Part shown: in pieces, positions 10,109 through 29,013 of the stretch
Layout: each line of letters starts with the position of its first letter
Numbering within the stretch: the stretch's first letter is position 1
Assembly: GCA_937871715.1 (NCBI GenBank)
Contig: CALMOE010000106.1
Coordinates: 1 to 35,240 of the forward strand
Length of the DNA stretch: 35,240 nucleotides
DNA from: an uncultured Geobacter sp.
GTDB taxonomy: Bacteria; Desulfobacterota; Desulfuromonadia; Geobacterales; DSM-12255
Direction of reading: 5' to 3'
Notes under the pieces: generated by a model
The model's input: the letters and a program-made list of their open reading frames with translations, nothing else
Database searches by the model: none
Told to the model about the DNA's origin: nothing
Made by a program: the position numbers and the translations under genes

Positions 10109-10930
10109 TCAGAGCCAGATTCCCTGCATTTCGGCTTCCCTAAGTGGCTTGCCGGTCTCATGGCGCAGGTAGGCAAGAATTTCAGCCAGGCTTGCCCGGA
10201 TGATCTCTTCGTCACGGGGGAACTCGTGGGGTGAGAGTTCCAGGGTCAAGGTGTCGTTGTAATCCGTGTTGCGCAGGTGATTCAGGAACCGGGTGAGCGG
10301 CAGCATGCCATGGCCGGGAATCAGGTGCTCCTTGCCGTGACCGTAGTCGGAGAAGTGGATGTTCCTGATCCTGCCGCTGTTGTAGCAGAGGTAGAAGTCG
10401 TTGATGAAGTTGGCCTTGCCCGAACCCATGTGGGTGGTGTCGAAGGTCATGTAGAGATTTCTTTCCGTAATGAACTCCAGCATCTTGTGGGTATCGGCGA
10501 GAATGTTCGGATTGATCTTGTATTTCCCTGTCCAAGGCATGTTTTCCAGGGTGATGGTTACTGCCCCCTGGCCGATCTCCTCCTGAAAGTCGTTGATCCG
10601 GTAGAGCCAGCGCCAGAAGCGGAGCTCAAGTCCGAGCCAGGATGGCGGGTGGAAGTTGACAAGGGGGACCCCGGCTTCAGCGGCTATCTCGACTGCCCTT
10701 TTGAGGGAGTCTATCTGGTCTCCCCAGCCGAACAGCGGCATGAATGGGGCGTGGATGGAGAGGATAGGCATGATCCCGGAGAGCTCTTCAAGCAGATCGC
10801 GTACATTGACCCTTTCGAAGTCCTGGTTGATTATCAGCTCCAGTCCATCGAATCCAGCCTCACGGGCTATTTCGAAGTTCTTTCTCAGGGGGAAGACAAA
10901 GAGTGTCCCTGATGAAATGGAGATCTGCAT
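10109..10930 (-). CDS. Sugar phosphate isomerase/epimerase-like TIM-barrel protein
   Basis: This 273-residue protein belongs to the xylose isomerase-like/endonuclease IV superfamily (AP_endonuc_2). Likely divalent metal ligands include H60 (SIHAPF), H94 (NFHPPS), E129 (LENMP), D164 and H167 (FDTTH), H192 (IHFSD), H207 (PGHG) and E231 (TLELSP), in the family order. The substrate cannot be told from sequence. The HxLIPGHG segment is common to this superfamily and does not by itself mean DNA repair. The gene lies between the DUF294 protein gene and gspA with short gaps, so it is probably part of the same transcript, with no obvious functional link. Confidence 0.75.
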   Translation of the reverse strand: MQISISSGTLFVFPLRKNFEIAREAGFDGLELIINQDFERVNVRDLLEELSGIMPILSIHAPFMPLFGWGDQIDSLKRAVEIAAEAGVPLVNFHPPSWLGLELRFWRWLYRINDFQEEIGQGAVTITLENMPWTGKYKINPNILADTHKMLEFITERNLYMTFDTTHMGSGKANFINDFYLCYNSGRIRNIHFSDYGHGKEHLIPGHGMLPLTRFLNHLRNTDYNDTLTLELSPHEFPRDEEIIRASLAEILAYLRHETGKPLREAEMQGIWL

Positions 10931-10979: not shown

Positions 10980-12053
10980 TCAGGTGGAGATAAAGTCAAG
11001 CAGATAGCGTTTGCGGACAATTTGCAGGAAACAGTCGATCCCCTTAAGGGCGGTCCTGAACTGCTCCCTTTCCTTAGCCGGCATGCATCTGGGGTCCACA
11101 TGGTTGGATGGTGGAGTCCTGGCGGCAATTTCCTGCAGCTGCGACTGGACACGAAGTCTGACCAGAAAAGAGAAAGCCGCCTCGATTCTCTTCAGATCGC
11201 CGGCGGAGATCATCCCCAGCTCCCCCAGGAGAGAAAGCTTGTCCCAGGTATTCCCACCGACGAAGCCTGCCTCGAGTGCCATGAGAGTTGAGCCCAGGGT
11301 TACGGCGAAGATGCCGGACCTCTTGACGTCGACCTTCCCCCGCTGCTCTCCCCTTCGCTCGACCCGGATACGACGGAAAAAGGTGAGCGGCGACGGGAAG
11401 CGCGTCGCATGGCGTGCCAGGTTGGGGAAGAAGTGTGGGGTGAGCCAGACGGCGCTGCGGATATGGTCGCGCAGCTCCTTGCATAGCCCATCGTCGCCGT
11501 GCAGGGGGCTGAGATCCTGTAAGAGGCAGAAGTCGAGAATGTTTTCAGGGGTAGGGGCTATTATCCACTCTTCGACGAGCTGCTTCCATTCGCTGACGCT
11601 GTGGCACCAGCGGGGGTTGCTGGCCATGACGTTGCCAGGGCAACGGGGAACGCCGATTGCGTCGAGCGAATCGACCAGGCGAGTGGCAAAACGGTTGACC
11701 TCGATCAGCTTTTCCGCCGGGAAGTCGTCCGGGTAGACGATGGCGCTGTCCTGGTCTGTGCGCAGGGTCTGCTCTCCCCGCCCTTCACTGCCGAGGGTGA
11801 GGTATGTGGCCCCATCGGGCAGGCAGATCCCCTCATTGATTTCCAGCAGGGCGATGAGTCGCCGGGAGATGGTGTAGTTGACCTTGGCGATCATCTGCAC
11901 GATGCTTTTGGCATCGACTGGCACGGTAATGATGCACCCTACCGTGTCGAGCATCTTTATGCCGAGCTCCTTCAGAACCTCGATGGATTTGGCGGCCTCT
12001 ATCTCGCGATAAAGCTGGAGAGGCGTGATAATCTCATTGTCGTTGACGGGCAT
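10980..12053 (-). CDS. DUF294 nucleotidyltransferase with intact active site
   Basis: This 357-residue protein has a GlnD-like nucleotidyltransferase domain (PF03445-type) followed by the helical DUF294 C-terminal domain. The active-site motif is complete: G88-S89 in TLGSEGRGEQT, then D100 and D102 in RTDQDSAIVY for metal binding. The C-terminal half includes DLSPLHGD and RRGEQRGKVDVKRSG. Related proteins often carry N-terminal CBS or cyclic-nucleotide domains; this one has only a short helical N-terminus. The family is predicted to transfer a nucleotide onto a protein or small molecule, but its substrate is unknown to me. It ends the cluster led by the symporter genes and lies 33 bp after the symporter-kinase. 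A TGAGG ribosome-binding site precedes the ATG. Confidence 0.85.
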   Translation of the reverse strand: MPVNDNEIITPLQLYREIEAAKSIEVLKELGIKMLDTVGCIITVPVDAKSIVQMIAKVNYTISRRLIALLEINEGICLPDGATYLTLGSEGRGEQTLRTDQDSAIVYPDDFPAEKLIEVNRFATRLVDSLDAIGVPRCPGNVMASNPRWCHSVSEWKQLVEEWIIAPTPENILDFCLLQDLSPLHGDDGLCKELRDHIRSAVWLTPHFFPNLARHATRFPSPLTFFRRIRVERRGEQRGKVDVKRSGIFAVTLGSTLMALEAGFVGGNTWDKLSLLGELGMISAGDLKRIEAAFSFLVRLRVQSQLQEIAARTPPSNHVDPRCMPAKEREQFRTALKGIDCFLQIVRKRYLLDFIST

Positions 12054-12086
12054 AACAACCTCATCCGCGTCCGCATCTTCAGGAAA

Positions 12087-15000
12087 TCAACTCTGCTGAA
12101 TGCCGCCGTCAATCCCTTCGGCAAAGGGGACGGTGAAGGAGAATACCGCTCCGGCCCCCAGTTCGCTTTCGACCCATATCTTGCCGCCGAGTTTCTCCAC
12201 GATCTCCCTGGAGATGGTCAGGCCCAGTCCGGTGCCGAGGGGATGGGACTTCTGGGGATCGCGCACCTGGTGGAAGCGGTCGAAAACCTGCTCCAACCGG
12301 TCTGGCGGGATGCCGGGTCCTTCGTCCGTCACGCTTATCAGGGCGAACATCCCCTCTCTTCTGCCGTTGATATGCACCTTCCCCCCTTCGGGTGAGAACT
12401 TTACCGCATTGGTGAGGAGGTTCGTCAGTACCTGGTGGAGCCAGTCCGCGTCAGCATAAACGGGGGGGAGGCCGCTTTCGATCGTGCTCTCCACCAAGAT
12501 CCCCTTCTCCACCAGAATGGGGTGGGTGGTGCCGAGCGCCCTGGCAAATATCGGTTCCAGCTCCAGAGGTTCGGAGTGCAGCTCCATGCGGCCCGCCTCG
12601 ATCTTCGAGAGATCGAGCAGGTCGTTGATCATCCGGGTCAGCCGCTCCGCCTCGCTGTGGATGATGCCGACGAATTTCCTCCGTTTGTCCGCGTCGTCAA
12701 CCTCGTAGCGAAGCAGGATCTCGGAAAATGACTGGATGGAGGTCAGGGGGGTGCGCAGTTCGTGACTCACTGTGGAGAGGAAATCGCTCTTGAGACGATC
12801 CAGCTCCAGCAGGCGGGCATTGGCCTTCTCCAGTTCGGCCGTGCGCCGGGCCACCTTCTCCTCCATGGCATGGCTGTATGCCTGGACTTCGGCGTAGAGC
12901 TGAGCATTGACCGCCGCCATGGCGAGCTGGTTGGCCAGGGCGGCGAAAAGCCCGACAAACTCTTCGGTGAAGTGCATGGGGCCGCGGGTCGCATAGGCGG
13001 TGAGTACGCCGATCACCCGTCCCTCGTAGGTCATGGGGGCGTGGATGAAGGCGCTGACCGGCACGTCCTTGACCAGTCGGGAAAACTGCAGCGGCTTGTC
13101 GATCTCCCGGGTATCCCCCACAACCACCGGCTTGGCATCGAGGAAGCAGAGGCCGAAGTAGGTCTCCCTGGAGGGTACCATGGCGGAGCCCTCCACGAAA
13201 TCGGCGGTTAGCCCGACATGGCTGCGGATCCTCAGGATGCCGTCGTCGTTCTGCAGCCGCACCGCCAGGTGCTCGAAGCCGAACTCCCGTTGGATCAGCA
13301 GGAGCACCTCCTGGATGAGCGTGTCGATATCCAGGCTTCTCGAAAGGGCGTGGGATGCCTCGTGGAGGACCACCAGCTCCCGCAGCCGCCGTTCCAGGGC
13401 ATCCCGGCTTTCCGCCAGGGTCAGGGAGACCCCGCCGAAGATGTCCAGGATCTCCACGGCCCGGTCCCTGGGCCAGGCGAGGGTGCTGTTGATGATCATC
13501 CTCGCCGACGGTGCGCCGATGGCGCTGGCCAGGCAGCGCTCGGTAGTTTCGAGCAGCAGCTGGGGGGATGAGCGTTCCGGAAGGGCTCCCAGCACATCAT
13601 GTGCCATTCTGGCGCCGACGAATCGCGCCAGAAGCTCTTCCAGGTCGGCCCTGGTGGCCCATGCGGCCGGGAGTTCGGTACGGCTGGATTCCTCCTTCGG
13701 GGGGGGGGAGAGCAGGCTGAAGGTGATGAAGGCCCCCAGGTTGAACACCAGGGACCAGATCAGGGCATGGGTCCAGGTGTCGAAGCCATGCAGCCCGAAG
13801 AGCGCCCTGGGGCGGAGCAGCTCGACCCCCCACGGCCCGTGGGTCAGGAGCGATGCGTCTATCCAGCCGGAATCTACGAAGCTGGGGACGAGCAGGGTAT
13901 AGGTCCATACGCCGAAGCCTGCAACCAGTCCTGCCAGCGCGCCGGTCCGGGTCCCCCCTTTCCAGTAGAGGCCGAGAAGAACGGCGGGGGCAAACTGGAA
14001 CACGGCGGAGAAGGAGAGCAGGCCGGTGGCGACCAGGGTGTGGGACTCGCCGATCCACCTGTTGAAGCCGTAGCCGAGCAGCACCACGCCGAAGATGACG
14101 GCCCGCTTGGTGTAGAGTAGCGGGCGGGAGATGTCCACCCCCCCAGCGCGGAACTCCGGGAAGACGCTCCCCACTAGGGCGACCCCGTAATGGTGAAGAA
14201 TCATGGTAGCAAGGGCGACCGCCTCGACGATGACCATGCTGGTAGCGGCGGAGAACCCCCCCAGGTAGGCGAGAAACGCCAGGCCGGTATGCCCCCTGGA
14301 TAGTGGCAGGGAGATCATGAAGAAGTCCGGGCTGAGGTTTCCTCCGTAAAGGCGCCCGACCAGGGCCACCGGGAGCACGAGGAGGTTGATGAGCAGCAGG
14401 TAGGCCGGAAAGGCCCATGTCGTTGTCAAGAGGTGCCTCTCCCGCACGTTTTCGACGGCAAGCATATGGAACTGGCGGGGGAGGAGGACCACGGCCGATG
14501 CGGAGAGCACGCTCAGCGCTGCCCAGGCGGAGAGGGATGTTCCCGACCCCTCGCCGAGCAGGAAGAGGCGCGACAGGTTCTGGTCCGCCATTGCCCGCTC
14601 GAACACCTCGAACAGCCCGCCGCCAATGCCAAAGGTGATGTAGAGGCCGATCACCAGGAAGGCGCCGAGTTTCACCGCGCTCTCGAAGGCGATCGCCGCG
14701 ACCATCCCCTCGTGCCGCTCGGTGGCGACCAGGCTCCTGGCACCGAACAGCCCGGCAAAGATCGACAGCCCCATGGCGGCCCAGAAGGACGCATCGTCGA
14801 AAATACCAGATGCCGCGGCTCTCCCGGTGAGCAGGTTGAAGGTGTAGCCGACCGCCTTTAGCTGGAGCCCTATGTAGGGGGTGATGCCGACCACCATCAG
14901 GGTAGTGGCGAGGGCACCCACTGCCCACCCCTTGCCGTACATGACTTCGAGCAGGTCGGGGAGGCTGGTGACACCTTCGGCCCGGCAGTAGGAGACGAGG

Positions 15001-15266
15001 CGTTTCAACAGGGAGGGTGCCAGGAGGAAAATGAGGGTCGGGCCAATATAGATCGGAAGAAATCCAAGGCCAGTCGATGCCGCCAGGCCGACGCTGCCGT
15101 AATAGGTCCAGGAGGTACAGTAGACCGCCAGGGAAAAACTGTACACCCATGGGTTGTCCACCGGGCTGCGCCCCATCTCCCTCGCCTTGTCACTGGCGTA
15201 AGCGATGGCGAACAGGCCGAGGAGATAGACGAAGCCGAGAAAGGCGACCCAGAAGGTATTGCTCAC
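12087..15266 (-). CDS. Sodium:solute symporter-histidine kinase fusion (CbrA/CrbS/MxtR type) with GAF domain
   Basis: In this 1059-residue sensor kinase, the first ~520 residues form a multi-pass membrane domain of the sodium:solute symporter family. A GAF-like domain follows (about 640-790), then a short coiled coil (about 800-825) and the kinase core. The phosphoacceptor is H835 (VSHELRTPL), the N box is around N953 (NLLTNAVKF), and the G boxes are DEGPGIP near 981 and GTGLGLT near 1011. Relatives (CbrA, CrbS, MxtR) sense amino acids or acetate and phosphorylate a DNA-binding regulator. No such regulator is adjacent here, only a free receiver at 18255-18626. Its ATG overlaps the end of the small membrane protein gene by 4 bp, so translation is coupled. 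Confidence 0.92.
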   Translation of the reverse strand: MSNTFWVAFLGFVYLLGLFAIAYASDKAREMGRSPVDNPWVYSFSLAVYCTSWTYYGSVGLAASTGLGFLPIYIGPTLIFLLAPSLLKRLVSYCRAEGVTSLPDLLEVMYGKGWAVGALATTLMVVGITPYIGLQLKAVGYTFNLLTGRAAASGIFDDASFWAAMGLSIFAGLFGARSLVATERHEGMVAAIAFESAVKLGAFLVIGLYITFGIGGGLFEVFERAMADQNLSRLFLLGEGSGTSLSAWAALSVLSASAVVLLPRQFHMLAVENVRERHLLTTTWAFPAYLLLINLLVLPVALVGRLYGGNLSPDFFMISLPLSRGHTGLAFLAYLGGFSAATSMVIVEAVALATMILHHYGVALVGSVFPEFRAGGVDISRPLLYTKRAVIFGVVLLGYGFNRWIGESHTLVATGLLSFSAVFQFAPAVLLGLYWKGGTRTGALAGLVAGFGVWTYTLLVPSFVDSGWIDASLLTHGPWGVELLRPRALFGLHGFDTWTHALIWSLVFNLGAFITFSLLSPPPKEESSRTELPAAWATRADLEELLARFVGARMAHDVLGALPERSSPQLLLETTERCLASAIGAPSARMIINSTLAWPRDRAVEILDIFGGVSLTLAESRDALERRLRELVVLHEASHALSRSLDIDTLIQEVLLLIQREFGFEHLAVRLQNDDGILRIRSHVGLTADFVEGSAMVPSRETYFGLCFLDAKPVVVGDTREIDKPLQFSRLVKDVPVSAFIHAPMTYEGRVIGVLTAYATRGPMHFTEEFVGLFAALANQLAMAAVNAQLYAEVQAYSHAMEEKVARRTAELEKANARLLELDRLKSDFLSTVSHELRTPLTSIQSFSEILLRYEVDDADKRRKFVGIIHSEAERLTRMINDLLDLSKIEAGRMELHSEPLELEPIFARALGTTHPILVEKGILVESTIESGLPPVYADADWLHQVLTNLLTNAVKFSPEGGKVHINGRREGMFALISVTDEGPGIPPDRLEQVFDRFHQVRDPQKSHPLGTGLGLTISREIVEKLGGKIWVESELGAGAVFSFTVPFAEGIDGGIQQS

Positions 15267-15454
15267 GGTTCATTCCTCCGGGTGAGCAGCCAGCTGGCCA
15301 GCACCAGCACCAACCAGACCATGAACAGATAGAAGGGGAGGGTCGGTATGCCCAGCAGGCTGCCCGGCTGGTTGAATGCCCCAAGCAGAGGGGAGTAGAG
15401 GGCCACTAGCCCCAGGGAGAAGAGAGCGGCAAGTCGGCGCGAGCTTGGATTCAT
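15263..15454 (-). CDS. Small two-helix membrane protein paired with the symporter-kinase
   Basis: This is a 63-residue protein with two hydrophobic segments (about 7-27 and 38-56) and a basic C-terminus ending RRNEP. Its stop overlaps the start of the symporter-kinase gene in ATGA. The layout mirrors the DUF4212 small subunit that precedes the true symporter in the same cluster, so I infer a subunit-like role, although sequence similarity is slight. I use ATG 15454, which has GGAG eight bases upstream, rather than the GTG nine codons earlier. The exact family is not recognised. Confidence 0.75.
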   Translation of the reverse strand: MNPSSRRLAALFSLGLVALYSPLLGAFNQPGSLLGIPTLPFYLFMVWLVLVLASWLLTRRNEP

Positions 15455-15482
15455 CTGCAGATCTCCATAAGTGCTTTTCACT

Positions 15483-15514
15483 GTTCAAGGTTTAGGGCAC
15501 TGTTGACCTTGAAC
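15483..15514. promoter_or_regulatory. Inverted repeat between the exonuclease gene and the small membrane protein gene
   Basis: GTTCAAGGT (15483-15491) and ACCTTGAAC (15506-15514) form a 9-bp stem with a 14-nt loop in the 71-bp gap between the two genes. It has no T tract, so it may be a processing or attenuation stem or a protein-binding site rather than a standard terminator. It is the main intergenic structure inside an otherwise tightly packed cluster. Confidence 0.4.
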
Positions 15515-15525
15515 CTGTGAACGCC

Positions 15526-18255
15526 TTAAAATTTCGACGTCTGCCAGCGCAGGAGCAGATGCTGATCGCAGAAGGACTTTGCCTCTGCAAGGGTCCTGAC
15601 CCCACGCCCCGGCAGCAGTATCATGAGTCCGAGGAAGATCTGCGCCGCTGCGCGGGCATCTCCCAGGGAGCTGTGCCGCCCCTCGATGGTGATCCCCATC
15701 CGCTCTGCAATGGCATCCAGGCTGTGCCCCTCGATCTCCTTGTGAAGGGCATAGGAGAGGAAAATGGTGTCGAGGACCGGGTTGTCGATCGGGGGGAGCC
15801 CGGTCTCGGCTGCGGCCATGTCCAGGCACTGCTTGTCGAATGCCGCGTTGTGGGCCACCAGTATGGAGTTCCCCAAGTATTCGACAAACTGGGGATATAC
15901 TTCGCTCATGGCCGGGGCATCTGCCACCATCCGGTCATCGATCCCGTGGATTTCCGTCGACTCTGGGGGTATTGGCCTCCCCGGGTTTACCAGGGTGTTG
16001 AAGATGTCGCTGTTCTGAATCCGCCCCCTTTGGATGCGTATCGCGCTGATGCTGACGACCCTGTCCCCATGGGAAAGCTGCAGCCCGGTGGTCTCGGTGT
16101 CGACAACCACGTAATCCAGATCCGCCAGCTCTGCCTGGAGCAGATCTTCCCGCTCCAGAACCGGCCTCGGCAGAAACAGGTCGAAGTTGTAAAATTCCGG
16201 CTCCCCCTCGATCAACCCCACTGCACAGTTTGATTCCGCAGCGGCGGTCGCCTGAAGCAGGGCCAACCGGACCTCCATCGACTCTCCCGAGGAGCGGGTC
16301 CAGAGCTCTCCATGGTTTCTGCGCACCGCCTCTCCCAGGGGGATCGGCTCTTCCCCGGCAGACACGAGTTCAAGTGATTCCAGTTCGTTTGGGTCTCCGG
16401 CAAAGGGACCACTGACCCGGAAGGTCGTCACCACGGCCCCGTCCTCCACCTTCAGGTTTGCGCCAATCCCTATCTGGCCGGCACCTCTCTGCTCAAGCCA
16501 GTGAAGGGTGCATCTCAAGGAGGCCACCCAGGAGAAAGGCTCCACCAGCACAGCGGGAATCGGCTGGTCGCTGCCGATCTCGATGGAGATTCCAGGAAGC
16601 GAACTCACCGCTTCCTCAAGAAGTTCCCTGGGATTGGAGGGGACGGCGGGCCAGCGCGACGTCCGGGCACTGCTTGCGGCCTCCTCAATGGCCGTCAGCC
16701 GTACGCTCAGTCGGTCCATCTCCTCTGCCAGCGCAGACAGAAACTCCCGTTGTTTCTCAGCCGACATCTGCTGATGGCGCTGCAAGGTTTCGATCAGCGC
16801 ATGGGAGGTAGCCACCGGTCCCCTCAGGAGAAGGGGCATCTCCAGCAGGGTCTCCTCGAACCGCGTGTCTTCCCCGGAGAGAGCGTTCAGATTCCTGAAG
16901 ACCAGGAGAAATCCGGCCCTTTCCCCGCCTGGGCCGGGGATGACCGACAGGGAGCCTTTCAGGAGCTTTCCGTCCCTGAGGGGGAAAATCACCTCTTCAA
17001 CAGCCTCCCGCCCCGGCTCCCATCCCCGGCGAAGCCGGTCCATGTGGAAACCGAGACGCTCACCGGGAAAGATGCGTGACAGGGGGGATCCTATGCCGGA
17101 ACTGTATCCCCGCCCAAGGATGATCCGGGCACGGGGGTTCATCAGTATCGTTTCTGCGGCCTCGTTGGCCACGATCACGCCATCGACCATGGTACGGAGC
17201 ACGGTCGCCAGGCGATTACGTTCCTCCTGCAGGGTCATGGTAGCATCGCGCACGCGCCCTTCCAGTTCATTGTACGCCTTGCCCAGGTTCTCGGCCATGA
17301 GGTTGAACTCGATGGCCAGCTCTTTGATTTCATCCCCGGCGTCTATCTTGATGCGGTGATCCAGGTTGATGCGGGAGATTATCTCGGCACCACGGGTTAT
17401 CTCCAGGATGGGGCGCATGTACTGATCCGCCATCCACCAGGCCATGGTGGCGACCAGGATGACGAAGAGGATGGTGAACAGGGCAACCTGGCGGCTAACC
17501 ATATATAAATGCCCGAACACCTGGGAATCCGGTTGGACCACGGCGAGAAACCAGCCCTTCGGAACTGTGCCCCCCGGGGGGGCCACGGCAGTGACTCCGG
17601 CTAAATAGGTCGCGTTGCCTGATTTGAAGGTTGTCCAACCGGGTTCCAGCTCTTCAGGGGGGGGGAGTGGCGTTGCCTGGCCCCCCGCCAGGCGCTCACC
17701 CCTGGCAGTGAACAGCACCACTTCCCCTGTCTTCTCCTTGCCGGGCTGCTCAATGGCCCATCTGACCCCTTCCGGGATAAAGTATATCGCCAGAGTACCG
17801 ACTGGGCTACCGCTGCTGCCCGCTACTGCCACCCGGTAGGCAAGCTCCTTTCCCGTTGTCGATACAAAGGGGGAGCCATTGCCGGGCGGGACCGAGCCGC
17901 CTCCGGGAACCAGGTCGATTCTCACTGTGCCGGGAACGGATTTCCTCGCCGAAGAAATGAGCTGTTCCGGAAACGGTCCCGACTCCGCCAGGTATGAGAC
18001 CACCTCGGGAGAGGCCGCCAGCCCGGTGGCCGCTTGCTGAACGAGGTGCAGTTCTCCGCGCAGTTGATCCGTCAGCTGCCTCGCTTCATGGGCGAGCTGG
18101 TTGCCGCGGATCCCCTCGATATCGCTGCGGACCATGAAGAAGAGGGACGCCAGCGCAGCCAACAGGGGGAGAACCGCCAGGCCGGTGAGGGAGACGATCA
18201 TCCGGTGACGCAGGCTTCTTTTCTTGGGGGATGAACCGGCCTGTCTGGCAATCAT
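15526..18255 (-). CDS. Membrane sensor (periplasmic-HAMP-PAS-degenerate histidine kinase) fused to a DEDDh 3'-5' exonuclease
   Basis: This 909-residue fusion is numbered here from the ATG. Transmembrane helices at about 20-42 and 256-274 flank a ~210-residue periplasmic sensor domain. HAMP (about 276-330), a coiled coil and a PAS-like domain (about 345-455) follow. A kinase-like dimerisation region (about 460-530) reads PLLLRGPVA where active kinases have HELRTPL, so the phosphoacceptor His is missing, and the ATPase-like region (about 540-670) lacks clear N and G boxes. The C-terminus is a DnaQ/RNase T-type exonuclease with all catalytic residues: D719 and E721 (DTETTG), D807 (HNAAFD), and H861 and D866 (RHSSLGDAR). 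The nuclease should face the cytoplasm. The ATG overlaps the stop of the receiver gene (TGATG), and a GTG one codon earlier is the alternative start. DnaQ-like nucleases and DUF294 proteins are recurrent neighbours of acetate-type symporters in other proteobacteria. Confidence 0.88.
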   Translation of the reverse strand: MIARQAGSSPKKRSLRHRMIVSLTGLAVLPLLAALASLFFMVRSDIEGIRGNQLAHEARQLTDQLRGELHLVQQAATGLAASPEVVSYLAESGPFPEQLISSARKSVPGTVRIDLVPGGGSVPPGNGSPFVSTTGKELAYRVAVAGSSGSPVGTLAIYFIPEGVRWAIEQPGKEKTGEVVLFTARGERLAGGQATPLPPPEELEPGWTTFKSGNATYLAGVTAVAPPGGTVPKGWFLAVVQPDSQVFGHLYMVSRQVALFTILFVILVATMAWWMADQYMRPILEITRGAEIISRINLDHRIKIDAGDEIKELAIEFNLMAENLGKAYNELEGRVRDATMTLQEERNRLATVLRTMVDGVIVANEAAETILMNPRARIILGRGYSSGIGSPLSRIFPGERLGFHMDRLRRGWEPGREAVEEVIFPLRDGKLLKGSLSVIPGPGGERAGFLLVFRNLNALSGEDTRFEETLLEMPLLLRGPVATSHALIETLQRHQQMSAEKQREFLSALAEEMDRLSVRLTAIEEAASSARTSRWPAVPSNPRELLEEAVSSLPGISIEIGSDQPIPAVLVEPFSWVASLRCTLHWLEQRGAGQIGIGANLKVEDGAVVTTFRVSGPFAGDPNELESLELVSAGEEPIPLGEAVRRNHGELWTRSSGESMEVRLALLQATAAAESNCAVGLIEGEPEFYNFDLFLPRPVLEREDLLQAELADLDYVVVDTETTGLQLSHGDRVVSISAIRIQRGRIQNSDIFNTLVNPGRPIPPESTEIHGIDDRMVADAPAMSEVYPQFVEYLGNSILVAHNAAFDKQCLDMAAAETGLPPIDNPVLDTIFLSYALHKEIEGHSLDAIAERMGITIEGRHSSLGDARAAAQIFLGLMILLPGRGVRTLAEAKSFCDQHLLLRWQTSKF

Positions 18256-18626
18256 CACGGTTCTATCATTTCGCGGATCTTTTCCAGCAGTTCCGCGGCA
18301 TTGAAAGGTTTGGTAATGTATTCATCTGCACCTACCTCCAGACCTTTCTTTCGTTCGAGGGCCTGCCCCTTGGCGGTGAGCATGACCACCTTTGTCCCGG
18401 CAAGCTCATCGCACCCCTTGATGATTCTGCATACCTCGTAGCCATCCTTCCTGGGCATGCTTATATCCAGCAGAATCAGATCCGGCCGGATGCGCCCGGC
18501 CACTTCCAGGGCCTCTTCCCCGTCCCGTGCCGTATGGACTTCATACCCCTCCATGTCCAGGATAAACTCAATTGACATCAGGATGTTTGGTTCGTCGTCC
18601 ACGGCAAGAATCTTTTTCTTCCCCAT
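18255..18626 (-). CDS. Stand-alone response regulator receiver (CheY-like)
   Basis: This is a single receiver domain of 123 residues without an output domain. Acidic residues D10 and D11, phosphoacceptor D54 (LLDISMP), T84 and K106 (TKPF) are all present, so it should be phosphorylated. Its likely kinase is the symporter-kinase (H835) in the same cluster. The degenerate kinase encoded directly downstream cannot donate phosphate but could receive this protein as a partner. The stop overlaps the start of the exonuclease gene, indicating translational coupling and probably functional pairing. GGAG lies eight bases before the ATG. Confidence 0.93.
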   Translation of the reverse strand: MGKKKILAVDDEPNILMSIEFILDMEGYEVHTARDGEEALEVAGRIRPDLILLDISMPRKDGYEVCRIIKGCDELAGTKVVMLTAKGQALERKKGLEVGADEYITKPFNAAELLEKIREMIEP

Positions 18627-18659
18627 TAGCTACTCTCCGGATTTAGATATAGTTTCCCA

Positions 18660-19943
18660 TTACTGGCTGACTTCAGCTATCTGCTGATAAAGAAGCCGCT
18701 GCAGAGTGGTCAGGTCCTCCAGCCCGGACTTCAGGCGCTCCCTGGAGACGTGGCCGAGAACGTCAGGATTGAGGAAATACTCCTCCCCCTCTCCGCCGTG
18801 GGCGATCTCCAGCTTGATCTGGCAGCGGACGAATTCGTTCAGGGCGAGCAGAAGGCGGTCGGCTATGGCAACCCCCAACCCTCCCCCTGCCAAAAGGGCC
18901 CTGATCCTTGCAGCAGTTGATGTCTCCCTGATGCCGGATAGGATGGCCAGCATCCTTACCGAGGCGACCAGGGGCCTGGTGGCCATCTCCTCCATTGAGA
19001 ATTGGCCACGGTGACTGCCGCTTCTTGCGGTGCGGAAGCGGCCGAACATCCCCAGGGCGACTGGCATGGTCGCCACCCTGCGGGCAAGCTGGCGGAACTC
19101 CTCCCTCTGACTCTCCCAGGCAAGGAAGGCGGCGGACATCTCCATGACACGATCGCTCAGATCCTTGTCCCCCCATATGGGGCGAAGGTCGGCGATCAAC
19201 TCTATGCCCCTGTCATAGGGGGTGGCCATGGCAGGATCGAATTTACCCCCCCCGCCACTCTGCCCCGGGACCATGGGGCCGATGGAGTCAAGCAACTGCT
19301 CCCGCCAATTGCCGATGGAGCCGTGCCAGAATATGGTGCCGCCACCTCTCAGCCCTGGCTGAGTCGGGATGCCGCAGTCGGCGAGGATCGCCATGAGCCT
19401 GATGGCGAGGCGGTGGAAATACTGATGACTCTGCGCGTCGCTCTCTTCGTGTGCGAGGATGATGCAATTCTGCCCACCGAGGGTGCTCTCCATTCGCCCG
19501 AGAGAGTCGGCAGCCAGCAGGCACCAGGAGCCCTGCGGCGCCGGCTCCCCCTCCTGGCGAAGGTGCTCCACGGCAATGGTGCAGGAGGTGATGAGCAGGG
19601 TTTCGAGGGTGGTGCTGAGGAACTCCTGGAAAGTCCCTGCGGAAGAGCGTGTGGCGAAATGCCGTCTGGAGGTGTCGCACAGTCTCGCGTAAAGTGGGGG
19701 GAGTTCATGGGCAAGGCGTGCTTCCGACAGTTTTGCCATGGTGGCGTTGAACTCCGCGGCCATGCTGCTGTCCAGGCTCTCTTCACTGAGTAGTTCATCC
19801 CTGATCCTGCGCAGCAGGGCAAGGCTCTCCCCGGTCTCAAGCTCCGCCATCCTGAAGGCAAGGCGCTTCTGTATACTCTCCAGCAGGCGTCTGCTCCCTC
19901 TGGATGACAACGTCTTTTCCGTATCTTGGCTGACCGGGATCAT
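18660..19943 (-). CDS. DUF294-like protein with degenerate nucleotidyltransferase site
   Basis: This 427-residue protein aligns with the intact DUF294 protein of the same cluster. Its ~135-residue helical N-terminal region is followed by a nucleotidyltransferase-like segment reading DSLGRMESTLGGQN, and then by a C-terminal domain with DLRPIWGD (compare DLSPLHGD) and a GSHRGQFSMEEMATRP segment. The Gly of the GS motif is D146, and the two metal-binding aspartates are replaced by Q158 and C160. Transferase activity is therefore unlikely, and it may act as a scaffold or regulatory paralogue. Similarity to DUF294 is read by eye. It lies 32 bp after the symporter gene and 33 bp before the receiver gene. 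Confidence 0.75.
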   Translation of the reverse strand: MIPVSQDTEKTLSSRGSRRLLESIQKRLAFRMAELETGESLALLRRIRDELLSEESLDSSMAAEFNATMAKLSEARLAHELPPLYARLCDTSRRHFATRSSAGTFQEFLSTTLETLLITSCTIAVEHLRQEGEPAPQGSWCLLAADSLGRMESTLGGQNCIILAHEESDAQSHQYFHRLAIRLMAILADCGIPTQPGLRGGGTIFWHGSIGNWREQLLDSIGPMVPGQSGGGGKFDPAMATPYDRGIELIADLRPIWGDKDLSDRVMEMSAAFLAWESQREEFRQLARRVATMPVALGMFGRFRTARSGSHRGQFSMEEMATRPLVASVRMLAILSGIRETSTAARIRALLAGGGLGVAIADRLLLALNEFVRCQIKLEIAHGGEGEEYFLNPDVLGHVSRERLKSGLEDLTTLQRLLYQQIAEVSQ

Positions 19944-19975
19944 CGTCCTCGCTTTCCCTCCAATGTGTGCTCTGC

Positions 19976-21505
19976 CTACTGCAGGTTTCCGTGAACCTCA
20001 TCGGCGAGGAAGCGCCTTATCTCCATTGAAGGTGGTTCACTGAACCTGGAGACGACGATCATTATGGCAAGAACCAGAGGGGCGCCGCAGAGGGCGGAGG
20101 CAGTCAGGGGGAAGAGGGTGTTCACCAGGGGTAGCACTCCGCCAAGGAGGGGTTGGGCAAATGTGACGAGAACACCGGTGAGCATTCCGCAGATTACCCC
20201 CATCCTGGTGGTGCCGCTCCACCATATGCCGAGGAGGAAGGCCGGGAAGATGGTGTTGCCGGCCAGGGCGAAGGCGACTGCCGCTATCTCCGCTATCAGC
20301 CCGGGGGGCTTGAGTGAGCCCAGGAGTACCAGGGCTGCCAGCAATAGGGTTGCCCCCTTGGCCAGCTTCATCCTGCGCCCCTCGCTGGCCCTGGGATTCA
20401 CCAGGCGGTAGTAGATGTCGTAGGAGATGGAAGCCGCGCCTGTCATGAGGAGCCCGGCAACGTTGAAAAAAGCGGCGCTGACCGCACCCGCGGCCAGCAT
20501 CCCCACCAGCCACTGGGGGAGGCCGCCGAGGAGGGCGGTACGCACCACCACGTTGTCGGCCATGGCGCGGGCCGCCTCCGGGGTGAGGTTGATGCCGCCT
20601 CGGGCTTCGATGAGCCTGCCGAAGACGGCGTAGGCCGGAGCCGACCAGTAGATCAGGGCGATGAAGAACAGCCCCCAGACCACGCTCCAGCGGGCGTCGC
20701 GCACGTTGGAGACGGTGTAGAAGCGGGAGAGGACATGGGGGAGGCCGGCTGTGCCGAGCATCAGGGTGAAGCAGAGGGCGGTCCAGTGGAAGGGGCCTGA
20801 GTGAACAAAGGGGGAGGCCATGTTGATGTTGAATTCCCTTGAGAGGTCGGCAATGGCCGTGCCGTAGCCGAACTGGGGCATTATCCAGAAGTAGCCGAGA
20901 CGCTTTGCGAGGAACATCAGTGGGAGGATGAAGGTGACGATGAGGACCGAGTACTGCAACTTCTGGCTGCGGGCAACGCCGAGGCTGCCCGAGATGACGA
21001 TGTACCCCATGAGGATGCAGGCGCCGAGGATCACCCCGCTGGAGTAGTCGATGCCGATCAGCCAGGCGAAGAGGATGCCGATCCCCTTGAACTGGGCGAT
21101 GCTGTAGATGAGTGTTATGGCTATGGAGATGGCGGCCGAGATCAGCCGGGCTGCGTTGGATTCGTAACGTTCGCCGATGAAGTCCGGTGCGGTGTACTTG
21201 CCGAAACGGCGGAGCTGGCCGGCGAGGAGCACCAGGAGGAGGACGTAACCCCCGGTCCAGCCGATGACGTAGGCAAGGGCCGAGTAGCCGTAGAGGTAGA
21301 TCAGGCCGGCTATGCCGAGGAAACTGGCCGCGCTCATCCAGTTGCTTGCAATGGCAGCGCCGCCGCCGATCCTGCCGGTATAGCGCCCGGAGACGCCGTA
21401 CTCCGAGCTCTCCCTGGTCTTGTAGAGCAGCCCGGCGATGACGAAGAGGAGGAGCACGCCGAAGACGAAGAGCATGGGAACCAGTTTCTGCCCGGTGTCA
21501 GTCAT
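19976..21505 (-). CDS. Sodium:solute symporter (acetate permease ActP-like)
   Basis: This is a 509-residue integral membrane protein of the sodium:solute symporter family with about 13 hydrophobic segments. Segments such as SNWMSAASFLGIAGLIY near residue 55 and GTAGLPHVLSRFYTV near 255 are typical of ActP-type monocarboxylate (acetate, pyruvate) permeases, so import of acetate or a similar short acid with Na+ or H+ is likely. Geobacter relies on acetate, which fits. The gene starts 8 bp inside the end of the DUF4212 gene, and the two products are expected to work together. Confidence 0.9.
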   Translation of the reverse strand: MTDTGQKLVPMLFVFGVLLLFVIAGLLYKTRESSEYGVSGRYTGRIGGGAAIASNWMSAASFLGIAGLIYLYGYSALAYVIGWTGGYVLLLVLLAGQLRRFGKYTAPDFIGERYESNAARLISAAISIAITLIYSIAQFKGIGILFAWLIGIDYSSGVILGACILMGYIVISGSLGVARSQKLQYSVLIVTFILPLMFLAKRLGYFWIMPQFGYGTAIADLSREFNINMASPFVHSGPFHWTALCFTLMLGTAGLPHVLSRFYTVSNVRDARWSVVWGLFFIALIYWSAPAYAVFGRLIEARGGINLTPEAARAMADNVVVRTALLGGLPQWLVGMLAAGAVSAAFFNVAGLLMTGAASISYDIYYRLVNPRASEGRRMKLAKGATLLLAALVLLGSLKPPGLIAEIAAVAFALAGNTIFPAFLLGIWWSGTTRMGVICGMLTGVLVTFAQPLLGGVLPLVNTLFPLTASALCGAPLVLAIMIVVSRFSEPPSMEIRRFLADEVHGNLQ

Positions 21506-21821
21506 AAAAACCGTCCCTTCGCCTGCTCTGCCGTTCGCTGAGCCGGTCGATCCCCAGGTTGAACAGGGCGCAGATTATGATGAACCATAGTGGGAGCATC
21601 TGGGCGGTGAACCAGAAGTGGAAGGGGAGGCCAAAGAAGTTGAACTCGGTCAGCCAGCTCCCCTTGTCATATACGTTGACTAGCGCCAGGAGCAGCTGGA
21701 AACCGAAGGTGACCACCCCCCAGCCGAGGAGGGAGGCAAGCATGATGGTCACCTCCCCCTTCATCTGCTCTCCCTTGGGGCGGAGCAGGTTTACCCGGCA
21801 GCTTTCTGGCTCTTTTTGCAT
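21498..21821 (-). CDS. DUF4212 small subunit of the sodium/substrate symporter
   Basis: This 107-residue protein has two membrane helices (about 27-47 and 72-92) separated by a segment containing FFGLPFHFWFTAQ, typical of DUF4212 proteins that accompany SSS-family symporters. It most likely stabilises or tunes the permease. AAGGAGG lies eight bases before the ATG, the best ribosome-binding site of the cluster, and the gene overlaps the permease gene. It is the first gene of the transporter/signalling cluster. I found no clear promoter in the 63-bp gap to truD. Confidence 0.88.
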   Translation of the reverse strand: MQKEPESCRVNLLRPKGEQMKGEVTIMLASLLGWGVVTFGFQLLLALVNVYDKGSWLTEFNFFGLPFHFWFTAQMLPLWFIIICALFNLGIDRLSERQSRRRDGFYD

Positions 21822-21884: not shown

Positions 21885-23087
21885 TCACTTGACGATCTCC
21901 CGCAGCACGGATGTGGCGTAGGCCCCCTTGGGGAGGGCAAACTCCAGCAGCAGGCAATCCCTCTCCTGGCTGACAACGGGATCGTGGATAGGGACCCTCA
22001 GGGGGCGCCTCTCCCCTTCGAGCCTGAGCCCCCCATCCCGGCTGAACAACTCGGCGGTGAGACCGGCCTCTTCCAGGATGCGGGCCTCCACTGCGGCGGC
22101 AACCCCTTGGGGCCGGAGCATCTTCCGGCCGAACATCGGCCCGGTTGCCGAGATCTCGAAGGCTGCCACGCGCGGCATGGCCTCCTCTGTCTCCTCCACC
22201 AGGAAGCAGGCAGCGTTGGCATGCTTGCAGGCGATGTCACCCGGCAGGATGGCGTCGATTTCACCGATGCGGGCTGCCACCACCCGATCGAAAAGCTCGG
22301 ACTGGCTGGCGGAGAGGTAGAGGGAGAACAGGCGCGGGTGAATGCACTTGACGGCACGTTGCCAATCCCCCGGCCTGCGCAGCAGGCTCCTGACTATCTC
22401 CCTTTCCGTGCGGCAACTCCCGGGGAGGAGCTCCAGCGACTCGGCCAGTTCGCCGCGGATGAATGCGGCAATCCCCTGCTGCCAGCGTTCGTCCCTCACA
22501 CCTTCGGGGTTGCCGATGATAGCCCTGATCGCCCCCTCGTCATCCCCCTGGAGGAGCCTTCGCCCGACCAGGCCAGAGTTCCCCTGGCTGCCGTAGCGCT
22601 GCTCGCCGAAATAGTTCGGCACCCCCCGCCTTGCCAGGATATCCACCACCGCCTGGGCACTCTGGCTGGCCCCCTCCTTCACCTGGCGCAGCCTGATGCG
22701 GAACCTGTTGCCTGACAGGTGGCCGAGGCGCAGCTTGTTGATGTGCCGCTCGGCGGAGAGGATGCGCACCCCGGGGATCTCCAGCTTGAGGAGCTCCTCC
22801 GGCGGGATGCGGGGGATGGACACCGTCTGCCTGGTGACCCCGCGGGCATCCTTCATCCCGGCGTAACCCAGCTCCCGCTCCGGCAGATTGACCCCCCTGG
22901 CCAGGCGGCGGAGCATCTCCAGGGTTGTCATCCCCCGCTTCTCCACCAGGGCGTAGGTGTGCTCTCCGCTGCCGCACGGTGCGTAGAGGGGGAGTTCGTT
23001 TACCTCGAAATCCTCGGCGCTCTCCTTGAAGATGCCGCCGCTGCCGGGTATCTCCACTGTCAGGAATGGGTATGCCGTGGTAATCAT
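21885..23087 (-). CDS. truD: tRNA pseudouridine synthase D
   Basis: TruD converts uridine 13 of certain tRNAs to pseudouridine. The 400-residue protein has the catalytic Asp at D80 in [14 protein letters not shown], the same number as in E. coli, and later family segments such as [12 protein letters not shown]. The frame is open for another 139 codons upstream, but that stretch is antisense-like and overlaps trmB. The true start is ATG 23087 with CGGAAG before it, overlapping the trmB stop by 4 bp (ATGA). Coupled translation with trmB makes a tRNA-modification pair. Confidence 0.94.
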
Positions 23088-23704
23088 ATCTTCCGGTAGT
23101 GGACGAAGTGGATTTTCTTCCCTTCGGCCATGAATTTCAGCATGTACTTGGAGCGGTGGTAACCCTCGAGCTCGTGCCTGTACAGGTCGGGCTTGAGCAG
23201 GTTGGTGAAGCCGGCGACCTGCGGCATGAAGGCGGCCACGTCCTGGCCGTAATCCTCGAAGTCGGTGGCGAAGTGGAAGTCTGCCCCGGCTGCCAGGTAA
23301 GGGTGGAGGAACTCCAGAAAACTGCTGCTCACCAGGCGCCGCTTGCGGTGGCGCTTTTTCGGCCAGGGGTCTGGGCAGTTTATGTACACCGCCGTAAGCG
23401 ACCCCTTGGGGATGTGGGTGGTGATGAACTCCCGTGCCTCCACCCGCAGCACCCGTACGTTGGTGAGGCCGCTCTTCTCCAGGCGGCGGCAGGTCTTGTC
23501 GCACCCCTTGTTGTAGTAGTCGATGGCGATGAAGTTGATACCGGGCTTTTCTGCGGCGGTCTTGGCGATGAAGTCGCCGATACCGCAGCCGATCTCCAGG
23601 GCAATGGGGTTGTCGTTGCCGAATGCCTTAATCCAGTCTATGGGGCTCTCCAGCTCTTCCGGGCGGAGGAAGAGGGGGGAGCTGATTTCAATCATGGTTT
23701 GCAT
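23084..23704 (-). CDS. trmB: tRNA (guanine-N7-)-methyltransferase
   Basis: TrmB methylates G46 in the variable loop of tRNA, using S-adenosylmethionine. The SAM-binding motif [10 protein letters not shown] and the family motif [14 protein letters not shown] are both present. I take the start at ATG 23704 (206 residues, [13 protein letters not shown]), which has GAGG upstream. The open frame extends to 23818, but the extra 38 residues look unlike TrmB and would overlap the preceding gene. It is followed by truD with a 4-bp overlap. Confidence 0.94.
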
Positions 23705-23814
23705 GGTTGCTGTCCTCGGTAAACGGTAAGCTGGGCTATAAATAGCACAGGACCGCACCATGCCGGAAGGGGAAATTGGTGCAGCTAATGTGGTGATGCT
23801 TGCCTTATGCCACT

Positions 23815-25209
23815 TCACATGTCGACGAAGTAGAGTTGCCAGGCATCGTCCATGCTCTCCCTGGTCATCACCGGCGGCTGCCTGTAATAGCGGGCGTTCA
23901 CCAGGATATGGCTAACCAGGTCCCGGGGATGGCAGGCATTGAAGTTTACGGCGAGACGCCGGTAGTAGTGGGAGACCAGATAGTCGAACACTTCTGCCTT
24001 GAACTCCACGCCGCTGGCGCTGCAGACCCTGATGAATATCTCCCTGAACTGCTCCACTGTCGGGTGGTCGATCTTGATCTTGTACTGGATGCGGCGCAGG
24101 AAGGCCTCGTCAACCAGCTGCCTCGGCTCCAGGTTGGTGGAGAAGATCACCAGCATGTCGAAGGGGATGGCGAACTTCATCCCGGTATGCAGGGTCATGT
24201 AGTCCACCCCCCTGTCAAGGGGGACGATCCAGCGGTTCAAAAGGTGCTGGGGGTCGATCTGCTGCCGGCCGAAGTCGTCGATGATGAACATCCCGTTGTT
24301 GGCCTTCATCTGCAGGGACGCCTCGTAGTATTTGGAAACCGGGTTGAAGTCCAGGTCGAGCATGCGCAGCACCAGCTCTCCTCCGGCGATGATCACCGGC
24401 CTGCGGATCTTCACCCAGCGCGGGTCTCCGCCATGATCGCCGTCGACCGGCTGGTGGTTCACCGGGTCGAAGATGGCGATGATCTCCCCTCCGACCGTGA
24501 TCGCATGGGGGATGAAGATGCTGTCCGGCAGGATGTTGCCGATGGTTTCTGCTATGGCCGTCTTGCCGTTGCCGGCCGGGCCGTAGAGGAAAACCGCCCT
24601 CCCCGAGCTGATGGCCGGGCCGAGGAGCTTGAGGGTTTCATCGCCAATGATCAGGTGGGAGAATGCCTGCTGCACGCTTTCGCTGGAGACGATGGCGCTC
24701 CTGATGGTCTGCAGTTCCGCCATCTCCCGGTAGGAGGTTAGGGTGACCGGGGCCGGTCCCACGTAGCGGCAGACTTCGAGGAGCTCTTTCCCCCTGCTTC
24801 TGCCGCTGTCGGACAGCTTGTAGGTGTAGGTGACCGCCGCGTACCCTCCCCCCCCCAGCACCTCGACGAGCTTGTCTCGGCGCAAAATCTCCATGAGCCG
24901 TTCGCAGACGCCGAGGGAGAGCCTGACCCGTTCCGCCACATCGGCCAGCCTGAACTCCCCCATGAAGAGGAGGTGCTTCAGTACCAGGTCCAGCAGCTGT
25001 CGGCTCTCCAGGCCGGTCTCCTCGATTGTCTGGGGGGGGGGAGGGGTCAGCATGAAGAAGCGGCTGAGTTCGCTTTCCGACAGATAACCCAGTTCCACCA
25101 GGTTCTGGCCGATTCTCCCCCCGCAGCGGCGTTGCCGCTCGCAGGCCGCATCGAGCTGCTCCCTGGTAATCACCCCCTCCTTCAGCAGCCTGCTTCCCAG
25201 CTGTTCCAT
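23815..25209 (-). CDS. AAA ATPase with tandem MshEN/GspE-N-like N-terminal motifs
   Basis: This is a 464-residue protein. Residues 3-26 and 32-55 form two copies of the 24-residue L/I-G-x2-L-x3-G-x-L/I-T/S pattern separated by five residues (RRCGG), which is the layout of MshEN (T2SSE_N) domains. A proline run follows (56-59), then a winged-helix-like helical part (about 70-135) and an AAA+ domain with Walker A GPAGNGKT (210-217), Walker B FIIDDF (about 308-313) and STNLEPRQL as sensor 1. Some MshEN domains bind cyclic di-GMP, and the adjacent upstream gene encodes an HD-GYP protein. The ATG at 25209 has AGGAGGT upstream and is preferred over the ATG 15 codons earlier. The target of the ATPase is unknown. 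Confidence 0.78.
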
Positions 25210-25293: not shown

Positions 25294-26745
25294 TCATGTC
25301 TGGTTTTCACACTGGGTGCTGGTCGCTTCCTTGCCGGCAGCCGGGCCTGTATCCTGGTTTGCGAAACCTGCCCCTCTGCTTCGCAGGATGCACTTGAAGG
25401 CCTGCAGCAGCCCCGGATCGTACTGGGTCCCGGCAAAGTCGTCCATGATATCCATCACCTTGGCTGGGTCCATCCCCTTGCGGTACGGCCTGTCCGAGGT
25501 CATGGCGTCAAAGCTGTCGGCAATGGAGATGATGCGCGACGGAAGCGGGATCTCCTCCGCCATGCTCATATCCGGGTACCCCTTGCCGTCATAACATTCA
25601 TGGTGGTGCTTTATCCACTCCATGACCTCCTTTAGCTCTTCGATGTTGGAGAGTATCTGTGCCCCCTGCAGCGGGTGCTCCTTGATGATCTCCATCTCTT
25701 CCGGCTTCAGTTTCCCCGGTTTCTGCAGGATATGCTCGGGGGTCCCTATCTTGCCGATGTCATGGAGCAGCGCTGCAAGCTCGATGGGGAGAATCTTCTC
25801 CCGCGGCATCCCGATCTCCTCGCAGATGGCGGCGGATATCTTGGCCACGCGGCGCGAGTGTCCGTAGGTGTAGGGGTCCTTGGCGTCTATCGCCGAGGCC
25901 AGTGCTTCAACGGTGTTGATGAAGAGCTTCTGGATCCTCTCATAGAGCTGGGCCTTCTTGATTGCCGCGGCGATCTCCCCGGAAAGGGCATCCATCAGCT
26001 TGATCTCCTGGGAGCGGAACCCTTCTCCGGACTTCTTGTCGCTGGCAATGAGGATGCCGATATTCTTGTCATCGGTTACCAGCGGCACGCAGAGAGATGA
26101 CCCCGGCAGAAAGGGGAGCTCTTTGGGCAGTTTCTTGACTGTGGCCACCTTTTTCCGGGCGAGGATGTCGCTGAAAGGGTCTGCTCCGGCATCGAAGCGC
26201 ATGCCGCGGATTGCCTCTCCTGCCGAACCTATGCCGGACTGGACGTTGAGCATGCCGCTCCTGTCGTCCAACAGGAGGATGATGATGCTGTTAACCTCGA
26301 TGGCGGAGCCGATCTCTTCCAGCGCCTGTGCGCAGATGGTGTCGATGTCGAGGGCGCTCCCCAGCTTGTGGGAGAGGGAGTAGATGAGGGAGAGCTCCTG
26401 GTAGAGGCGGACGATTTCGGAGGAGAGGTCTTCCAGCTCGGCTTCCAGGCGAAAGGCGTTCTCCATGCAGAATGCGGCCATTTTCAGCAGCGGATCGAGT
26501 TGCTCCCCCACTCCTCGGCAGGAGATGCTCCCCACCTTCTCCTCGCCGAACAGTACAGGCACCTCTCTTGACGGGAGGGAACTGCTCTTCGCCCCCTCCG
26601 CCAGTTCACCGGGGGGTGTCGCTGCCATGCTGTTCCCCTCCATGTCGGTGAAAATGATGGAAATCCCGCTGATGGCGGCCAATCCGTCTAGGATTCTGTG
26701 CAGGTTCTGCCCGGAAGGTGTAGTGGGTCTGATGCCCATTGTCAT
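25294..26745 (-). CDS. GAF-HD-GYP protein, probable cyclic di-GMP phosphodiesterase
   Basis: This 483-residue protein has a non-conserved sensor-like N-terminus (1-105), a GAF domain (about 125-265) and an HD-GYP domain (about 275-450). The metal-binding HD is H328-D329 in LLHDIGKIG, and the family signature HHExxDGxGYP ends at G389-Y390-P391 with all residues present, so phosphodiesterase activity against cyclic di-GMP is expected. AAGGAG lies five bases before the ATG, and the preceding histidine kinase gene ends 10 bp upstream. The receiver, kinase and HD-GYP genes therefore look like one signalling unit. Confidence 0.92.
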   Translation of the reverse strand: MTMGIRPTTPSGQNLHRILDGLAAISGISIIFTDMEGNSMAATPPGELAEGAKSSSLPSREVPVLFGEEKVGSISCRGVGEQLDPLLKMAAFCMENAFRLEAELEDLSSEIVRLYQELSLIYSLSHKLGSALDIDTICAQALEEIGSAIEVNSIIILLLDDRSGMLNVQSGIGSAGEAIRGMRFDAGADPFSDILARKKVATVKKLPKELPFLPGSSLCVPLVTDDKNIGILIASDKKSGEGFRSQEIKLMDALSGEIAAAIKKAQLYERIQKLFINTVEALASAIDAKDPYTYGHSRRVAKISAAICEEIGMPREKILPIELAALLHDIGKIGTPEHILQKPGKLKPEEMEIIKEHPLQGAQILSNIEELKEVMEWIKHHHECYDGKGYPDMSMAEEIPLPSRIISIADSFDAMTSDRPYRKGMDPAKVMDIMDDFAGTQYDPGLLQAFKCILRSRGAGFANQDTGPAAGKEATSTQCENQT

Positions 26746-26755
26746 GGCAACTCCT

Positions 26756-28636: not shown

Positions 28637-29013
28637 CCTCTATCCGATGCGAGCAGTTGGTGTACCCTCTCCAGCACCTCCCTAGGGCTGAAGGGTTTTG
28701 TCATGAACTCGTCGGCCCCGGCTTTCATGCAGTTCTCCCGGTCGATCTCCTGCCCCATGCAGGTGAGGATGATGATGTGGGGAGAGCGTGAGCCGTTGGC
28801 CGATTTGAGTTGTCTGCAGAGGTGGAAACCGTCCATTTTCGGCATGATGAGGTCGAGGAAGACAACCTTTGGGGCAATCTCCCGGCATTTTGCCTCAGCC
28901 TCCTCGCCGTTCCGGGCTGTCTCGATGTCGTAACCCGCCTTGCTGAAGATAAAGCTGAGGGCGCGAACAATATGTGGTTCGTCGTCGACAACAAGAATAT
29001 CAGTTTCTCGCAT
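28633..29013 (-). CDS. Stand-alone response regulator receiver
   Basis: This is a 126-residue receiver domain without output. D10, D11, D54 (FLDLIMP), T84 and K106 (TKPF) form a complete phosphorylation site. It is the first gene of the long minus-strand run, overlaps the next gene (histidine kinase) by 4 bp and is most likely its substrate. It closely resembles in layout the other free receiver of the window (18255-18626), but the two differ in most surface positions. GAGG lies eight bases before the ATG. Confidence 0.93.
   Translation of the reverse strand: MRETDILVVDDEPHIVRALSFIFSKAGYDIETARNGEEAEAKCREIAPKVVFLDLIMPKMDGFHLCRQLKSANGSRSPHIIILTCMGQEIDRENCMKAGADEFMTKPFSPREVLERVHQLLASDRG

Follow-up and report, generated by a model that had tools for sequence, protein, structure and literature searches.

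The closest described systems to the locus analyzed here are CbrXA and CrbS/R, the latter together with its P. putida targets PP_0353 and PP_0354. In CbrXA/CbrB, a Pseudomonas system with an SLC5-STAC histidine 'transceptor', cryo-EM shows the two-helix hairpin protein CbrX packed against the SLC5 domain of CbrA (PMC13022988), and CbrX is translationally coupled to CbrA (PMC6591292). CrbS/R (MxtR/ErdR) brings together an SLC5-kinase, an ActP-like symporter, a DUF294 protein and a 3'-5' exonuclease in carboxylate use, by way of its targets actP, PP_0354 (CBS-DUF294) and PP_0353 (RNase_T) (PMC9927547, PMC5715377). On pyruvate, the nuclease mutant PP_0353 of P. putida is impaired and the transferase mutant PP_0354 is not, the deletion of PP_0354 having no phenotype on either acetate or pyruvate (PMC9927547). 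A further counterpart is found in Caulobacter, where the pseudo-histidine-kinase DivL is addressed by a phosphorylated response regulator, DivK~P:DivL being a precedent for a lone receiver that works through a pseudokinase (PMC4853435).

Here, we analyzed a window of 35,240 nucleotides, which is one whole contig of the 3.43 Mb draft genome of an uncultured Geobacter sp. An earlier sequence-only reading had listed eight genes in it, and our analysis recovered all of them in the same places, on the minus strand and with the same domains (Table 1). The overlaps it had reported between each small membrane-protein gene and the following gene were also borne out (8 nt for sm1/sym1 and 4 nt for sm2/slcHK), and the rr and exonuclease genes overlap by 4 nt. 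It had further described two modules that repeat one gene order, namely small membrane protein, symporter and DUF294 nucleotidyltransferase. The first genes of both modules do have the two-helix topology, but they do not belong to the same family: sm2 gave no DUF4212 match, nor a match to any other Pfam or NCBIfam family, and the "same" first gene therefore denotes a topology in common only. Upstream of trmB, a receiver, a histidine kinase and a GAF/HD-GYP protein are encoded in a row (window 25294-29013).

Table 1. Features of the window that are considered in the text.
Gene	Coordinates	Strand	Product	Match
sm1	21498..21821	-	small two-helix DUF4212 protein, module 1	PF13937 1.5e-16, TIGR03647
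sym1	19976..21505	-	VC_2705-family (ActP-like) sodium:solute symporter, module 1	TIGR03648 476 bits (cut-off 320.75)
ntD	18660..19943	-	DUF294 pseudo-nucleotidyltransferase, module 1; GlnE-like predicted fold, catalytic Asp pair gone	
rr	18255..18626	-	lone receiver with phospho-acceptor Asp, without output domain; cassette gene 1	PF00072 1.5e-30
pseudo-histidine-kinase-exonuclease	15526..18258	-	TM/sensor, HAMP, PAS, predicted DHp-CA fold without H-box His, DEDDh 3'-5' exonuclease; cassette gene 2	
sm2	15263..15481	-	CbrX-like two-helix hairpin; cassette gene 3; likelier start is the ATG at 15454	
slcHK	12087..15266	-	SLC5 domain-GAF-HisKA-HATPase 'transceptor' histidine kinase; cassette gene 4	
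ntI	10980..12053	-	intact DUF294 nucleotidyltransferase, without CBS or cNMP domain; cassette gene 5	PF03445 1.2e-37, PF10335 3.4e-36
TIM-barrel (AP_endonuc_2) protein	10109..10930	-	far flank of the insertion	
truD	21885..23504	-	longest-ORF coordinates, real start internal; conserved neighbor upstream of module 1	PF01142 1.2e-112

Comparison across the order revealed that the window holds two neighboring, independently inherited units: module 1 and a five-gene cassette (in the order rr, nuclease fusion, sm2, slcHK and ntI) that has been inserted into it. Across 60 regions of the order, module 1 had either the recurrent context trmB-truD-sm1-sym1-ntD-TIM barrel or a place beside a further symporter/DUF294 pair, symB-ntB, and relatives without the cassette have the TIM-barrel counterpart immediately after ntD. 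The tRNA modification genes truD and trmB (window 21885-23818) lie directly upstream of module 1 in many relatives. The symB-ntB pair, which often adjoins module 1 in related genomes, is the third such pair of the source genome, where it occupies another contig (L054, 6640-10028) and encodes a 670 aa symporter and an intact transferase. More than 40 genomes of the order possess module 1 and lack the cassette, as does a genome of the same genus (G005), and most carriers have the cassette elsewhere. The nuclease fusion, including its kinase-like part, was detected in 19 of 141 genomes and an slcHK orthologue in 18, all 18 being common to both (P about 8e-22, a rough value since the genomes are related); the odd carrier, G044, has a kinase without SLC5. 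In a sample of the phylum, 15 of 345 genomes encode a fusion relative in which the kinase-like part is present. The gene-neighborhood check proposed with the sequence-only reading thus found the five cassette genes together, but did not find modules 1 and 2 as one unit.

The window, two relatives (one being Geobacter argillaceus, NZ_VLLN01000001.1, L131) and G052 have the cassette flanked by ntD and the TIM-barrel gene, whereas in G064 it separates sm1 from sym1, so that it is found inside the module 1 locus in five genomes and at two different insertion points; other carriers mostly have it elsewhere or on a contig too short to tell (G021). With module 1 conserved across the order and the cassette separate and patchy, the twin layout is best described as a juxtaposition. 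This pattern does not support the proposal of one eight-gene system, in which sym1 would transport, slcHK would report, and the transferase would add and the nuclease remove a nucleotide on a shared target. Most genomes have either module without the other; in addition, known DEDDh enzymes cut nucleic-acid 3' ends, and the differing phenotypes of the P. putida PP_0353 and PP_0354 mutants (PMC9927547) do not fit a simple opposition. Some tie between the modules is still plausible because they stand side by side in five genomes at two insertion points, and the eight-gene proposal also draws on three separate gene families in which DUF294 is paired with an SLC5-type symporter and on the GlnE adenylyltransferase/removase fold of DUF294 (see below). 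Taken together, we consider it quite improbable.

Within module 1, sym1 scores above its family cut-off and is accompanied by the TIGR03647/DUF4212 partner gene, while ntD carries the DUF294 and DUF294_C domains in Pfam. The contrast drawn earlier between a ruined and an intact active site was confirmed in the corresponding segments of ntD (SLGRMESTLGGQNC) and ntI (SEGRGEQTLRTDQD), with Gln and Cys at the DxD catalytic Asp positions of ntD. At least one catalytic Asp is missing in 50 of 52 module 1 DUF294 copies. Universal loss of the active site was ruled out by two relatives in which both Asp residues align (L024 and L028, by motif), and the loss consequently seems to have been repeated. A decaying pseudogene was also ruled out, as dN/dS of ntD ranged from 0.11 to 0.25 in 16 pairs of relatives (0.05-0.09 for the intact, symB-linked copies). 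The module 1 DUF294 protein is therefore an order-wide pseudoenzyme lineage under purifying selection. Since the predicted GlnE-like fold is kept and the catalytic aspartates are lost, ntD probably serves the symporter as a pseudoenzyme with a binding or regulatory role, and module 1 would thus consist of a sodium:carboxylate-type symporter, its DUF4212 partner and a DUF294 pseudoenzyme.

The intact transferase ntI likewise consists of DUF294 and DUF294_C, and its motif GSEGR..TDQD retains both the GS..R and the DxD signatures; the Asp pair is kept in all 31 symB-linked and cassette DUF294 copies of the order. A sequence search found no solved DUF294 homologue. The ntD model (pLDDT 88) matched both halves of E. 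coli GlnE, with Z 28.9 for the adenylyl-removase half and Z 28.2 for the adenylyltransferase half, as well as DrrA (Z 23.7). Both GlnE and DrrA are protein adenylyltransferases, and their scores lie far above any RNA enzyme listed among the structure matches of the DUF294 model. As judged from these fold matches, a protein is the likelier target of the DUF294 enzymes. Unlike GlnE, however, DUF294 forms a single catalytic unit that is paired with transporters, and ntD is devoid of the catalytic Asp pair. The protein adenylyltransferase fold argues against a scheme in which ntI would lengthen RNA at the 3' end and the nuclease would shorten it again in response to nutrients, to which the proximity of the DEDDh fold to DnaQ and RNase T lends some weight, as does the speculation by the authors of the P. 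putida study that PP_0353 degrades metabolic mRNAs (PMC9927547); we hold RNA tailing and trimming to be very unlikely.

The long nuclease had been described as a sensor-exonuclease fusion. The fusion was upheld, but its sensor part also contains a complete, catalytically dead histidine-kinase core that had gone unseen. Pfam recognized HAMP, PAS and RNase_T (PF00929, 8e-36) and nothing between PAS and the nuclease, whereas an AlphaFold2 model of residues 330-910 (pLDDT 82) displayed the PAS domain followed by a two-helix hairpin and an alpha/beta domain. In a Foldseek search, the kinase-like part of the model matched WalK (9e-17, the best value), HK853 and PAS-HK structures. The C-terminal part matched PolC/DnaQ exonucleases (Z 24.9). 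The VIA-align output for this long model was filled by the exonuclease domain, and the kinase assignment therefore rests on Foldseek and the secondary structure of the model. The predicted structure thus identifies the protein as a PAS-DHp-CA pseudokinase joined to an exonuclease. Across 82 fusion proteins, the H-box His was absent from its position three residues before the conserved Arg in every case, this H-box Arg being itself R or K in all 82, and the DEDDh residues (D720, E722, D808, H862 and D867) were intact throughout. Judging from these alignments, the kinase fold of the nuclease has lost the usual His as a site of phosphorylation. The periplasmic part of the fusion is variable and is missing in several relatives.

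A shorter family of TM-PAS-DEDDh exonucleases (L117-L122, 524-562 aa) has no kinase-like part; these paralogues were ruled out as carriers of the system, as none of the six has an SLC5-kinase or DUF294 neighbor. A search with defence-specific models, made to consider an anti-phage defence system, returned only generic matches, namely DEDDh-domain ones and one marginal ATPase-domain match.

The kinase slcHK bears the Pfam domains GAF, HisKA and HATPase_c. Its SLC5 part had no Pfam SSF match, yet residues 10-463 aligned with PDB 10ed chain A ('histidine kinase') at 1.3e-71, a homology that is one of the likenesses to CbrXA. Residues 464-640, searched for a STAC domain, yielded no match; the alignment to the PDB chain stops at 463. 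Another likeness is the overlapping two-helix hairpin gene ahead of the SLC5-histidine kinase gene: sm2, whose two helices are inferred from sequence, is like CbrX in its size, its topology and the overlap of its gene, and a profile of 16 sm2 proteins searched against the PDB gave no chain of the CbrX kind, only a chance match. In contrast to CbrXA/CbrB, slcHK has a GAF domain before HisKA, a lone receiver replaces the sigma-54 regulator CbrB, and a nuclease and a transferase belong to the cassette. Two further SLC5-kinases of the source genome (L112 and L113) have no DUF294 or nuclease neighbors. The H-box His is present in 43 of 43 slcHK relatives, and the phospho-acceptor Asp of rr is kept in 73 of 75.

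These features bear on a conventional two-component route, in which slcHK and rr would signal to an unlinked transcription factor, with the nuclease and transferase as no more than co-regulated metabolic genes. It has precedents in Pseudomonas, where actP and the PP_0354/PP_0353 operon are under direct CrbS/R control (PMC9927547, PMC5715377) and SLC5-kinases act via DNA-binding regulators. In the CrbS/R system the parts are linked by transcription via CrbR, unlike the linkage proposed for the cassette, and PP_0353 is described as an RNase_T-family exonuclease, the pseudokinase part found in the cassette fusion being unmentioned. Against this route, a partner regulator with a DNA-binding part is not encoded alongside slcHK, rr being a bare receiver with no output domain; in most loci its gene overlaps or abuts that of the pseudokinase-nuclease, and the nuclease is itself built on a receiver-docking fold. 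We regard the conventional route as unlikely, though to be taken seriously.

The cassette extends well beyond the order. A scan with an alignment of twelve fusions yielded 80 loci in Desulfobacterota, Alpha-, Beta- and Gammaproteobacteria, Myxococcota, Calditrichota and others, with rearranged versions across Pseudomonadota, Myxococcota and Deferrisomatales. Among 56 distant loci that were scored, rr was present in 38 (within 300 bp in 36), a kinase in 33, DUF294 in 31 and sm2-like proteins in 27, in many gene orders. Chance would account for about 0.5% (kinase) and 0.8% (DUF294) per locus, an estimate that uses approximate copy numbers, assumes a 4 Mb genome and treats related loci that are not independent; the observed excess is very large. 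In Paracoccus denitrificans PD1222 (PDEN_RS25395-RS25415), DUF294, small protein, SLC5-kinase, receiver and nuclease follow one another as overlapping genes in one run, and Cupriavidus necator N-1 has the order symporter, SLC5-kinase, nuclease and DUF294. Some loci have a soluble kinase in place of the SLC5-kinase, or no adjoining kinase; in L134 and L147-L149 the adjoining kinase lacks the SLC5 domain. Four distant loci have neither rr, kinase nor DUF294, three of them on short contigs and one (L183) on 22 kb. A sizeable share of the loci, some of them truncated, showed no DUF294 next to the fusion, and this gene may therefore be accessory. Distant-locus copies of DUF294 carry CBS and sometimes cNMP-binding domains. 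Two Desulfobacterales nuclease loci (L150, 12013-13835; L164, 14384-15478) encode a spore-photoproduct-lyase-like radical SAM protein, and L150 also an SNase-domain protein.

These data strongly support the five-gene cassette as a functional unit. The association of SLC5 proteins, DUF294 transferases and DnaQ-like nucleases that had been suspected from the window alone is seen far beyond the source clade, and the notion of a sensing module with an SLC5-kinase gained support. We found no description of the combination in the open-licence literature; the cassette is real and widespread and, as a system, apparently undescribed, its components and the general SLC5-kinase link being already known.

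For the wiring, that is, the phosphotransfer partner, the docking, the direction of control, the ligand and the substrates of nuclease and transferase, we infer the following. The SLC5 domain of slcHK, with its attached CbrX-like hairpin, would sense, and perhaps transport, a small carboxylate and thereby control autophosphorylation; a carboxylate ligand is suggested by analogy with CrbS/R and by the pyruvate phenotype of PP_0353. The phosphoryl group would pass from slcHK to rr, which could also serve other kinases, and the phosphorylated receiver would dock on the pseudo-DHp of the membrane-bound pseudokinase-exonuclease, switching its DEDDh 3'-5' exonuclease together with the HAMP/PAS input. 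Such docking has its parallel in DivL, which, unlike the cassette fusion, has no nuclease and targets the kinase CckA. The GlnE-like ntI would also serve this response, and nucleotidylylation of a protein is its most likely role; the lack of a phenotype of the P. putida PP_0354 deletion on acetate and pyruvate (PMC9927547) speaks against the reading. Kinase to receiver to pseudokinase is the simplest wiring because the kinase marks are intact, the receiver has no output domain and the nuclease sits on a dead-kinase fold; and, as the proposed chain ends in a nuclease and a transferase, its output would be enzymatic, not transcriptional. We assign a probability of about 50% to this reading as a whole, i.e. 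two independent units, with an SLC5 kinase acting through a lone receiver on a pseudokinase-gated nuclease and the transferase in the same response. A more specific form, in which the receiver is an allosteric gate on the tethered exonuclease, and exonuclease and GlnE-like transferase together mark a transporter or a metabolic enzyme reversibly with a nucleotide, is speculative and rather doubtful.

If the proposed chain is correct, a histidine-kinase fold would have been converted to control a nuclease in a phosphorylation-dependent manner, a two-component output that is undescribed in searchable papers. It would also give a reason why SLC5 sensor kinases, DUF294 transferases and DnaQ-like nucleases associate in carboxylate metabolism, and it offers a common testable hypothesis for P. 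putida PP_0353/PP_0354 and the compact five-gene operon of P. denitrificans.
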